64,000 nucleotides of DNA, from assembly GCA_947624965.1 (NCBI GenBank), contig CANQMN010000003.1, positions 62,001-126,000 of the forward strand, given 5' to 3'. Below, one piece after another: positions 35,435 through 38,818 of this stretch. This DNA comes from an uncultured Clostridia bacterium. GTDB taxonomy: Bacteria; Bacillota; Clostridia; Christensenellales; Borkfalkiaceae. Made by a program: the position numbers and the translations under genes. The notes under the pieces were generated by a model. The model had not been told where the DNA came from and did not search any database. It worked only from the letters and a program-made list of their open reading frames with translations. The first letter of the stretch is position 1; every line of letters begins with the position of its first letter.

Positions 35435-36115
35435 ATGCGCTTTCCCATGCTCAAAAGCGCGGAGGACATCGCCGCGCTCGTCGGCGAAGCGGGGTTTCTG
35501 CCCTTCTTCCGCGGCGAGATCGAGGGTTTTTCCGTCGAGGAACTCACGCCCGCGGAACTTTGGTTCGCGGCGGATGCAGACGGACCGTGGGAGTGGAAGG
35601 GACCCGTCATCCGCCTTGCGCACTGCGCCTACGGCAAGTTTTATCGGGGCAAGGCGATGTTCGTCTCGCGGGAGTGGTTTCCCGACTTCGCCAACCTTCG
35701 CCGCGACGGCTACGACTTTGACGCGCGCATGGACGAAGGGCTCGCGCGCGGGCGGGACGTTCCCATCATGGAGGAACTTTGGCAAAAGCCGAGCCTTCTC
35801 TCCAAGGAGCTGAAATTCCGCGTCTGTTTCACCGAGGACCGCAAGAAAAACTTCGATTCGTCGCTCACGCATCTGCAAATGCAGTGCTATGTGAACATCG
35901 GGGACTTCGAGTACGCGCGGGACAGGTTCGGGAAGCCTTACGGCTGGGGGCTCGCCCGCTATACGACGCCCGAGGCATTCTTCGGGAGCGATTTTTGCCG
36001 CGAGGCATACCGCCGCGCGCCCGAAGAGAGCGGCGCGCGCATCGCGGCGCACCTCGAAGGGCTTCTTCCGCACGCGTCGTCGGCGCAGATCGGGCGCCTG
36101 CTCGCCCTGCGCTGA
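35435..36115 (+). CDS. Conserved protein of unknown function (AlkZ-related family)
   Basis: A 226-residue soluble protein with RBS ATAGGAGGAGAT. The pattern FFRGEIEGFSVEELTP, PWEWKGPVIR, YGKFYRGKAMFVS, RRDGYDFDARMDEG, SLTHLQMQCYV and YGWGLARYTTPEAFFG matches a family common in gut Bacillota and Bacteroidota that is often labelled AlkZ-related, after a DNA glycosylase superfamily; I have no evidence for the activity itself. Its last ~30 codons and its terminator recur in diverged form at the end of the next gene. It follows rplQ after a UUCG hairpin and may be reached by read-through. Confidence 0.75.
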   Translation: MRFPMLKSAEDIAALVGEAGFLPFFRGEIEGFSVEELTPAELWFAADADGPWEWKGPVIRLAHCAYGKFYRGKAMFVSREWFPDFANLRRDGYDFDARMDEGLARGRDVPIMEELWQKPSLLSKELKFRVCFTEDRKKNFDSSLTHLQMQCYVNIGDFEYARDRFGKPYGWGLARYTTPEAFFGSDFCREAYRRAPEESGARIAAHLEGLLPHASSAQIGRLLALR

Positions 36116-36240
36116 AATAAAAAGAAAATAAAAGGGGACGCAACTTGCGTCCCTTTTTTTGCTTTTCCCGCCGCTTTTGCCCGTCTCTCTTTCCCTCGTC
36201 TTTCTCTGTTTTACCTCCCCCTCGCGTTGCGAGGGGGGAG
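36018..36240 (+). repeat. Copy A of a ~200-bp direct repeat (gene tail, terminator, palindrome)
   Basis: From CCCGAAGAGAGCGGCGCGCG through the stop codon, the terminator and the first palindrome, this segment aligns with copy B at 38384-38590. Most bases match, with a gap of about 15 bases near the stop codon. In both copies the reading frame is the same. Confidence 0.8.
36133..36160 (+). terminator. Rho-independent terminator after the AlkZ-related gene
   Basis: GGGGACGC, loop AACTT, GCGTCCC followed by seven T residues, 18 bases after the stop codon. Confidence 0.9.
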
Positions 36241-36372
36241 ACATTGTCTTGTTTCCCTTCCCCTCGCAACGCGAGGGAAAACACATTGTTTTTACCTCCC
36301 CCTCACGATGTGGGGGCACATTGTTTTTTACCTCCCCCTCGCAACGCGAGGGGGAGGGTAGGGTGGGGGTGT
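36214..36372. repeat. Array A: four palindromic repeats with G-rich tail
   Basis: Four imperfect palindromes of the type CCTCCCCCTCGCAACGCGAG start at 36214, 36256, 36295 and 36330, about 40 bases apart. They are joined by a conserved ACACATTGTTTTTTA linker. The last one continues into GGGGGAGGGTAGGGTGGGGG (ending near 36370), a classical G-quadruplex pattern. This array fills the space between the terminator and the lipoprotein promoter. Confidence 0.85.
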
Positions 36373-36424
36373 GCAAAAAATAAGGAAAATCGCGATAATT
36401 TTTATAAAAACCGCGTTCAAACGC

Positions 36425-36455
36425 TTGACTTTTTAATACCGGGGGGGGGTACAAT
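36425..36455 (+). promoter_or_regulatory. Candidate phase-variable promoter with G9 tract
   Basis: TTGACT (36425-36430) and TACAAT (36450-36455) are separated by 19 bases, nine of which are an uninterrupted run of G (36441-36449). A loss of two G residues would restore the optimal 17-base spacing. It drives the lipoprotein gene 98 bases downstream. Confidence 0.55.
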
Positions 36456-36552
36456 GTATTTATACTTCCATATTCCAAGATTTGCCGTTCTATATGCGTA
36501 TAATATTACAATTATGCAAATCGGGGAAAATTCGGGAAGAGGAGATGCAACC

Positions 36553-38463
36553 ATGAGAAAGTCGAGAAAATTGTTTCTTACGCTTGCCGCCGTTGCGGCG
36601 GCTTGCGCGGCTGTTGCAGGTCTTGCCGCCTGCGACGAAGAACCCGCTCCGCCCCCGACGGACGGACATACGCACGCGTACGGCGCGTGGACGGTTACCG
36701 CAAAGCCCACGGCGGATACGGAAGGGCTCCTCACCAAGACGTGCCCGAACTGCGACGCTTCGGCGGAGGGACACACCAAGACGCGCGCGCTTCCCGCGCT
36801 CACGGGCGGCGGCTACCTTGCGGGACCCGATTCGGCGACGTGCACGGCGGGCGGCAGTATCACCTATTCGTGCACGGTGGACGGCGAGGCGATCTCCTTT
36901 ACCGTGGATACGCCCGCGAAGCAGCACGCGTACGGCGCGTGGGCGGTTACCGCAAAGCCCACGGCGGATGCGGAAGGGCTCCTCACCAAGACGTGCCCGA
37001 ACTGCGACGCTTCGGCGGAGGGGCACGCCAAGACGCACGCGCTTCCCGTACTCACGGACAGCGGCTATCAAAAGACGGAGGACTCGGCGACGTGCACGGC
37101 GGGCGGCAGTATCACCTATTCGTGCACGGTGGACGGCGAGGCGATCTCCTTCGACGTGAATACGTCCAAAAAGGGACATCAAATGGGTCCGCTCGTGGAA
37201 GGACGCGAAGCGACCTGCGAGAGCGAGGGCGCCCATGCCTATTACGAGTGCGGGGTGTGCCATCACAAGTATGCCGATCTCAACGGCGAGGACGAGATCG
37301 AGGATATCGTCATTCCCGCGGCGCACGTCTACGAGGCACATCCCTTGGAAGAGGCGACCTGCCAAAAAGCGGGCAAGCAGATGCACTACACCTGCGCGAA
37401 GTGCAATAAGTTCTTCGACGAGCATAAGACCGAGTGCGACGAGAGCGATCTTGTCATTCCGCAAATCGAGCACACGCAGGAATTCTTAAAAAACCATTAC
37501 ACGCCCGCCCAAATCAACGTGAACTACTGCACCGAGATATTTGAAGCGGAGCATTGGTACTGCACCATGTGCGAAAAATACTTCAATGCGGACATGGAAC
37601 CCTACGAAAACGAAAGCGCATGGCAGCAACATGCCCCCTTGGGACACGATTTCGACGGCGCCGAATTGGTCCCCGCCGTGGACGCGACTTGCACGACGTC
37701 CGGCATGCCCGCACACTACGAGTGCAACAGGTGCCACGAGTATTACGCCACGAATGAAGCGGCGGCTACGAACAATACGCCCGTTCAGGAAATTCCCGCA
37801 ATGGGACATCATTGGGTGAGCGAAGGCGAGCTCGGCGACCCTGTTCCCGGAGGCGGCAAGATCAGCATAAAATGCGACAATGCGAATTGTAACGAGAAGC
37901 AGGAGATCGACTACAAGGACGCGCCCGCCTTGACGGGGACAACCGTCGCTAACGCCGTCCAAATCGACGGCGCGGGACAGTACTATATCAAGGGTACGGC
38001 GGCAACCAATTTGCTGTTCTCCATTCCCATCACAAAGGCGGGAACGTATCACGTCGATTTCATCAATCTCGATGCAAGCAGCAGAAACATTACATTTGCC
38101 CAAGTATCAAATGGGATAGTACATGTATTCGATGAGGCGGGAACGTCGCGGATGACCGCACGTTTTACCAATCCTAGGACCGATAATAAATTCCCTGTAA
38201 TGAGCAATACATACGGCAGTTTAACGGGAGAACTTTTGAGCAGTAGCGGACCTTACCGTTGGTTTGAGTTTCAGGCGGAGGAGTCGCTTGTGGGCGGAAA
38301 GATCGTGTTTGGTATCAAGTTAAACAGCGCAAGCGCGGACAGCCCGTTCCCCGCCGTTATCGACGTAAAGATCACGGATCCCGCACCCGAAGAGAGTAGC
38401 GCGCGCATCGCGGCGCACCTCGAAGCGATGCTTCCGACCGAACGCCAGCTTGCTCTGTACTGA
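36553..38463 (+). CDS. Lipoprotein with Cys-pair repeats and beta-sandwich C-terminal domain
   Basis: A 636-residue protein whose start (MRKSRKLFLTLAAVA) is set by GAAGAGGAG upstream; a longer opening on the 5' side runs through repeats and is not used. A signal peptide ends in lipobox LAAC (Cys27). Two near-identical 84-residue modules follow (HAYGAWTVTAKPTADTEGLL, KTCPNCDAS), then related modules with CxxC pairs (YECGVCHHKYAD, YTCAKCNKFFDE, WYCTMCEKYFN, YECNRCHEYYA) separated by GH or H motifs. Residues ~460-610 look like a carbohydrate-binding-type beta sandwich (GAGQYYIKGTAATNLLFSIP). The last ~26 residues (PEESSARIAAHLEAMLP) copy the end of the upstream gene. It is probably displayed on the outer face of the membrane; its ligand is unknown. 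Confidence 0.85.
   Translation: MRKSRKLFLTLAAVAAACAAVAGLAACDEEPAPPPTDGHTHAYGAWTVTAKPTADTEGLLTKTCPNCDASAEGHTKTRALPALTGGGYLAGPDSATCTAGGSITYSCTVDGEAISFTVDTPAKQHAYGAWAVTAKPTADAEGLLTKTCPNCDASAEGHAKTHALPVLTDSGYQKTEDSATCTAGGSITYSCTVDGEAISFDVNTSKKGHQMGPLVEGREATCESEGAHAYYECGVCHHKYADLNGEDEIEDIVIPAAHVYEAHPLEEATCQKAGKQMHYTCAKCNKFFDEHKTECDESDLVIPQIEHTQEFLKNHYTPAQINVNYCTEIFEAEHWYCTMCEKYFNADMEPYENESAWQQHAPLGHDFDGAELVPAVDATCTTSGMPAHYECNRCHEYYATNEAAATNNTPVQEIPAMGHHWVSEGELGDPVPGGGKISIKCDNANCNEKQEIDYKDAPALTGTTVANAVQIDGAGQYYIKGTAATNLLFSIPITKAGTYHVDFINLDASSRNITFAQVSNGIVHVFDEAGTSRMTARFTNPRTDNKFPVMSNTYGSLTGELLSSSGPYRWFEFQAEESLVGGKIVFGIKLNSASADSPFPAVIDVKITDPAPEESSARIAAHLEAMLPTERQLALY
36673..37055 (+). repeat. Tandem 252-bp module repeat in the lipoprotein gene
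   Basis: The sequence beginning CACGCGTACGGCGCGTGG at 36673 recurs at 36925 with very few changes over more than 120 bases. The TGCACGGCGGGCGGCAGTAT segment following each copy is also repeated. One unit encodes 84 residues. Confidence 0.9.
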
Positions 38464-38590
38464 CAAAACATAGAAAATAAAAAGGGGACGCAACCTTGCG
38501 TCCCCTTTTTGTACATTTTTCGCCGCTCTTGCCCGTCTCTTTTCCCCTCGCCTTTCTCTCTCTTACCTCCCCCTCGCAACGCGAGGGGGA
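38384..38590 (+). repeat. Copy B of the ~200-bp direct repeat
   Basis: Matches 36018-36240: the coding tail (CCCGAAGAGAGTAGCGCGCG), the GGGGACGCAA terminator, the CGCCGCTCTTGCCCGTCTCT stretch and the first palindrome. Together with copy A it brackets the whole lipoprotein gene and its promoter. Confidence 0.8.
38484..38510 (+). terminator. Rho-independent terminator after the lipoprotein gene
   Basis: GGGGACGC, loop AACCTT, GCGTCCCC and five T residues, 20 bases after the stop. Confidence 0.9.
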
Positions 38591-38818
38591 GGGTAGGGTG
38601 GGGGTGTGGCTCTTCACTCCTCGCCTTTCTAGGTCCCCCCTCGCAACGCGAGGGGGGACACATTGTTTTTTACCTTCCCCTCACCATGTGAGGGGGGACA
38701 CATTGTCTTGTTTACCTCCCCTTACGATGTGAGGGGAGACACATAGTTTTTTACCTCCCCTTCACGAAGTGAGGGGGAGGGTAGGGTGGGGGTGTGGCTC
38801 TTCACTCCTCGTCTTTCC
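38566..38818. repeat. Array B: five palindromic repeats with G-rich tails
   Basis: Palindromes start at 38566, 38634, 38673, 38715 and 38754. Their arms vary in a paired way (CTCGC/GCGAG, CTCAC/GTGAG), and ACACATTGTTTTTTA-like linkers separate the middle ones. A 38-base segment GGGTAGGGTGGGGGTGTGGC...CTTTC occurs at both ends (38591 and 38781), and with the preceding G5 each forms a G-quadruplex pattern. No gene lies in this 468-base space. Confidence 0.85.

Follow-up and report, generated by a model that had tools for sequence, protein, structure and literature searches.

The promoter of porA in Neisseria meningitidis carries a poly-G tract in its spacer, where the gain or loss of a single base alters transcription (PMC3899988). 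The locus described here resembles it in having a poly-G tract in the promoter spacer of a surface-protein-type gene, slippage and its effect on expression being predicted in our case. Unlike porA, which represents one promoter in a pathogen, the architecture is found at eleven promoters of a single genome and across a genus, mostly before lipoprotein genes and with a scarcity of 17-bp spacers. The mechanism of spacer slippage is itself already known from porA; the scale, the lineage and the 17-bp shortage look new. In Bifidobacterium breve, a G-tract switches a sortase-dependent pilus by slippage, and other G-tracts in promoter spacers are noted in one sentence (PMC9187656). Both cases place a G-tract in a Gram-positive gut commensal, slippage being proposed for ours, but the B. 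breve switch is intragenic and its promoter-spacer cases are, in the relevant excerpt of that paper, mentioned without data. Candidatus Mycoplasma girerdii shows repeat variation at multiple loci in BspA-like surface-protein genes, a number of which are predicted to be off in their major form (PMC5476646). It shares with the present case multi-locus repeats, surface-protein genes and an uncultured bacterium, but its repeats are mostly dinucleotide, shift the reading frame and were measured to vary in reads, whereas ours lie in promoter spacers and come from assemblies. Finally, 54 variable-length tracts, almost all of G or C, were reported in Propionibacterium acnes, including one C5/C7 tract that lies between -35 and -10 and goes with a 2-fold difference in expression (PMC4746626). 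Variable G/C tracts, with one in a promoter spacer, are thus common to both systems, but in P. acnes the variation tracks clades and was interpreted as having accumulated slowly, and the excerpt describes no lipoprotein repertoire such as the one present here.

A 2025 review treats it as an open question, in its section 8, whether multi-locus phase variation is confined to pathogens (PMC11868660); the uncultured genus of gut clostridia studied here looks like a counter-example. No earlier report of such an arrangement extending over many promoters and a whole genus in an uncultured gut commensal, or of the 17-bp shortage, was found in the open-licence part of PubMed Central, covered mostly by titles and the starts of abstracts.

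Examination of the window, that is, the whole stretch of 64,000 nucleotides that was analysed, placed the -35 element TTGACT at 36425-36430 and the -10 element TACAAT at 36450-36455, all features of the locus being on the forward strand. The 19-bp spacer between them (36431-36449) closes with nine consecutive G (36441-36449), the proposed slippage site, which abut the -10. This anatomy is exactly that of the original prediction, and a mononucleotide tract between -35 and -10 is one defining feature of promoter-spacer (porA-like) SSR contingency loci. Upstream lies an AlkZ-related gene (PF24741, 35435-36115; Pfam E=2.3e-75), outside the putative switch and followed on its 3' side by a terminator-like hairpin (36130-36158, a consensus match only), so the next gene probably needs its own promoter. 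A consensus scan of positions 36100-36600 detected no alternative promoter with a spacing of 16-18 bp. An A/T-rich block immediately 5' of the -35 (36395-36424) may act as an UP element; it is there, at about 36395, that homology to the promoter of a paralog in the same genome, which carries both hexamers unchanged, begins in the alignment. A ribosome-binding site motif AGGAG (36540-36544) precedes an open reading frame of 636 amino acids (36553-38463, ATG at 36553) with a predicted signal peptide and a lipobox LAAC at residues 24-27 (36622-36633, Cys27). Searches against Pfam and NCBIfam returned no family above cut-off for this protein. The lipoprotein had been described beforehand as exposed: the lipobox is present, and from it surface exposure may be deduced.

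The assembly containing the window (1.79 Mb in 34 contigs) has 17 runs of exactly G8 and 23 runs of at least nine G (22 G9 and one G10). Such runs are not rare by themselves, as 0.58 bare G9 are expected per window and 32 of 100 dinucleotide shuffles contained one; the combination of -35, G9 and -10 was found once without mismatch, against 0.04 expected in the window when up to three mismatches are allowed. A search of the assembly with TTGAC-G6+-TANNNT revealed 11 distinct promoters, of which nine carry G9 and the remaining two G8, and the reversed control gave one match; overlapping alternative matches to one promoter were removed before counting, here and in the genus set. The 11 spacers measure 15, 15, 16, 16, 16, 17, 18, 18, 19, 19 and 19 bp. 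Together with intragenic G9 runs, these promoters give the genome at least the 10 candidate tracts that characterise a phasome, all of them candidates. The anatomy in the window and the spread of spacings around 17 bp fit slippage of the porA type.

Beyond this genome, the pattern TTGAC-G7+-TATAMT matched in 79 of 103 genomes of the genus and its reverse in none of the 103. Together with a second search of 31 of these genomes, this provided 270 listed matches from other genomes after removal of overlapping alternatives; among the matches listed, own genome included, 253 unique strings comprise 18 G7, 43 G8, 148 G9, 37 G10 and seven longer tracts. Runs of C also occur in spacers (32 matches in 25 of the 103 genomes, C8 or more in 20 of the 32). 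With a stricter G8 pattern applied to 391 genomes across the class, eight matched, corresponding to three of four members of the genus and five of 387 others, with no match for the reversed control. A scan of GTDB genomes found at least 119 stretches, from metagenome-assembled genomes (MAGs) and some isolates of several projects; many titles refer to gut Clostridia and Bacilli MAGs, and the matches listed also include Saccharibacteria, Spirochaetes, Helicobacter, Streptobacillus and others. Given the contrast within the class and the scattered GTDB matches, the poly-G spacer architecture clusters in this lineage and is sporadic elsewhere. RpoA of the genome under study is 92-93% identical to that of two Clostridia bacterium MAGs and 79-81% identical to that of four other MAGs, two from Candidatus Borkfalkia and two more from Clostridia (of 14 named genomes compared, 11 gave a match), which would place the genus near Borkfalkia.

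Ordinary TTGACA-TATAAT promoters of the genome under study have a 17-bp spacer in 61 of 84 cases (88 before three with a long G run and one overlapping duplicate were dropped). By comparison, the unique genus promoters whose tract is G8 or longer number 235 among the matches listed (the 18 unique G7 promoters being excluded), and only 28 of them have 17 bp. The others have 13 (3), 14 (6), 15 (40), 16 (42), 18 (41), 19 (54), 20 (17), 21 (3) and 24 bp (1), with peaks at 15-16 and 18-19 bp. The GTDB set, obtained with a search pattern that forces the tract against the -10, behaves similarly (125 among the matches listed: 12 at 15 bp, 20 at 16, six at 17, 31 at 18, 40 at 19, 12 at 20 and four others). 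Relative to 16 and 18 bp, the GTDB promoters show a strong deficit at 17 bp (p=7e-5) and those of the genus a marginal one (p=0.04), and shuffling tract lengths against flank lengths gave p=0.009 and p=0.02, respectively, all of these values being optimistic because homologous promoters and paralogs are not independent. Promoters with C runs agree, 17 bp being found in four of 20 with C8 or longer and in 10 of 12 with C7, seven of these 12 representing one conserved promoter. That C7 promoter, with a short, non-varying tract and a spacer of exactly 17 bp, is identical in G024, G060, G041, G049, G007, G006 and G074. Promoters with G7 do not return to 17 bp (two of 18), which counts against switching.

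Because promoters of this genome normally have 17 bp, the 19-bp promoter in the window is plausibly weak or OFF. It had been proposed that a loss of two G would restore an optimal 17 bp and that the present length is weak or OFF; the first part agrees with the ordinary promoters, and the second is plausible. The simplest reading of the assembled sequences is that most G-tract promoters would be stored in an off-optimum state, and the scarcity at 17 bp suggests that the optimal (ON) state may be disfavoured in the bulk population or last only briefly there. If the shortage holds, the probable state of such promoters would be readable from spacer length in assemblies alone.

Downstream genes were chosen by one script for every promoter set, and lipoproteins were called with a simple regular expression and a hydrophobicity cut-off; of its six hits after ordinary promoters at least one is apparently false, and one protein that it missed resembles a lipoprotein. 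Nine of the 11 G-tract promoters of the genome precede lipoproteins and one more precedes a protein with another signal or membrane segment. In the genus, where 59 of 60 loci drawn from the 270 listed promoters were scored, 37 precede lipoproteins, seven precede proteins with another signal or membrane segment and 15 neither. A lipoprotein follows only six of 79 ordinary promoters, and another signal or membrane segment follows six more (four of the 84 regions were not included and one of the remaining 80 gave no match), so that the enrichment is significant both in the genome (Fisher 3e-7) and in the genus (2e-12). In the GTDB set, 107 targets were scored among the matches listed, 18 of 125 promoters having been left out for fewer than 400 bases downstream; 22 are lipoproteins and 57 carry another signal or membrane segment. 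A Pfam survey of 101 of them (six from named cultured genera left out) gave, among the best 25 of 68 families, BspA-type leucine-rich repeats (LRR; 10), the baseplate Gp10 C-terminal domain (5) and ABC transporters (4), as well as InlB-type, Ig-like and collagen repeats (two or three each). Among the ten other targets of the genome itself, a large BspA-type LRR region is present in one and Listeria-Bacteroides repeats in two, in one of these below cut-off. The lipobox in the window and the lipoprotein bias of G-tract promoters thus correspond to the surface or surface-modifying target of porA-like SSR contingency loci, exposure being presumed. Within the same genus, the G-tract promoters of L056, L059, L060 and L079 stand before ABC-transporter-like ATPases, not lipoproteins, the family being judged by eye from the start of the sequence.

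Because the arrangement recurs at 11 promoters of the genome and in the majority of the species sampled from the genus, mostly before lipoprotein genes, an on/off slip switch is likely. In the proposed mechanism, the G9 run would act as a mononucleotide repeat prone to slippage within the spacer of a promoter of the housekeeping-sigma type; whenever replication added or removed G, the two hexamers would come to lie further apart or closer together, and this would reversibly change transcription of the lipoprotein gene, which is expected to be weak or OFF in the present 19-bp state. The locus would then belong to a larger repertoire, spread over the genus, of lipoprotein and surface-protein genes under poly-G control, mostly assembled away from 17 bp. 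We consider this form of phase variation, a multi-locus repertoire mostly stored off-optimum, to be the probable explanation, with slippage rate, expression effect and surface exposure as its presumed components. Phase-variable expression of the lipoprotein, as originally predicted, is favored in part by the genus-wide set of spacers, the lipoprotein link and some length differences; against it, the window promoter has the same length as that of its paralog. A stronger version, in which the lipoproteins form a default-OFF, bet-hedging repertoire, the bulk population avoids 17 bp, and about one gene in ten is at the ON length with the rest one or two slips away, is a tentative proposal that we hold slightly below even chances. 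If true, this would be a phasome of a non-pathogen built largely on promoters, not on reading frames.

Comparison of tract lengths, which are those of the assembly consensus, provided evidence on both sides. Three pairs were selected for differing. Orthologous promoters of G001 and G055 have tracts of G8 and G9 between flanks that are 98% and 100% identical, and a longer alignment of 1229 columns contains 29 substitutions as well as 3 indels, one of which falls inside the tract. Two contigs of the G065 assembly carry G8 and G7 with 98% identity over 93 bases upstream, the downstream side ending at the contig end, which is suggestive of length variation inside one population. Two paralogs in G240 have G11 and G12. 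A further candidate pair, from G004 and G085, was discarded since its flanks are non-homologous. Leaving out the loci chosen for differing, six of 15 families of homologous promoters have more than one tract length; two of these six keep the spacer length unchanged, and nine of the 15 have a single tract length, both observations counting against switching. The window promoter and its paralog form one of the nine. When 271 bases of the window locus were compared with the 103 genomes, 40 gave some match, of which only the paralog aligned over most of the query, the rest being short. The two promoters are 85% identical over 260 bp and both have G9 and 19 bp, which again counts against switching. 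On the other side, the segment that starts near 36395 and takes in both hexamers and the tract has hardly changed, while the leader, with a TATAAT near 36500, has diverged. The variation looked for in related genomes and copies was therefore found at some homologous promoters and not in the window promoter relative to its paralog. In G002, 15 of 16 near-identical promoters have G8 at 15 bp and one has G7 at 14 bp; these promoters may have been copied recently or may be kept in that state by selection, and in both cases they argue against fast free drift. Two of the G002 copies were compared and are lipoprotein-type loci by one scored target (L207). In G030, five related promoters all have G9 at 15 bp, likewise counted against switching.

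Runs of G9 also lie inside surface-type genes of the genome, whose frames were taken as assembled with none repaired. In L022, the tract separates a signal peptide from an open frame, at least 915 residues long, that is read in another register; L002 loses the frame at its tract, where its relative L021 keeps it. The frame is also kept across G9 in L012 (a lipoprotein), L014 (a repeat protein), L008 and L001, and L003 has no long frame beyond the tract. This mixture of kept and broken frames in surface-type genes counts in favour of switching. A loss of mismatch repair as the driver was ruled out, MutS_V being present in all 41 genus genomes examined; that repair is not lost counts against switching.

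These uniform lengths and the presence of MutS would suit slow evolutionary tuning, in which length changes between lineages set a fixed promoter strength with no switching within populations. The one-length paralog families (15 of 16 in G002, five of five in G030, the window promoter and its paralog) are what it expects, and the variable G/C tracts of P. acnes, which followed clades in the part of the study cited (PMC4746626), offer a precedent. It sits poorly, however, with the strong lipoprotein-gene bias, spacings on both sides of 17 bp, a one-G difference at the near-identical loci of G001 and G055 and the coexistence in one genome of coding tracts that keep the frame and others that break it, and we regard it as unlikely, though worth keeping in mind.

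A binding site or structural element (for a regulator, a DNA bend or RNA-polymerase contact), involving no switch, could account for tract length being sharply peaked at nine (148 of 253 unique strings among the matches listed) and for the preference for G over C in spacers (270 listed G matches from other genomes against 32 for C, with equivalent patterns). The tract, however, is found anywhere from touching the -35 to touching the -10 in the own and genus promoters, C runs also occur and total spacer length is spread; what is shared is the spacing, not a fixed binding site. A fixed regulator site is disfavoured by this variable position, and the broader explanation seems to us very improbable. 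The frequency of bare G9 makes it conceivable that the run merely lies near a fortuitous promoter match or is an assembly artefact. Against this stand the absence of reversed-pattern matches in 103 genus and 391 class genomes, the same pattern in MAGs and some isolates from several projects and the lack of another promoter with 16-18 bp spacing in 36100-36600. The reversed controls, that of the own genome included, rule out chance as the sole cause, and we give this explanation hardly any credence.

Two further features were observed around the lipoprotein gene. The region 36016-36240, with the 3' end of the AlkZ-related gene, the terminator and adjoining bases, is repeated after the lipoprotein gene at 38382-38590, in pieces 73-89% alike, which looks like a duplication or insertion event. 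The final residues of the lipoprotein derive from the second copy, and its paralog ends otherwise. In addition, a 28-base palindromic repeat of the CCTCCCCCTCGCAACGCGAGGGGG type is present in eight copies clustered on both sides of the gene, at 36208-36373 and 38560-38796.
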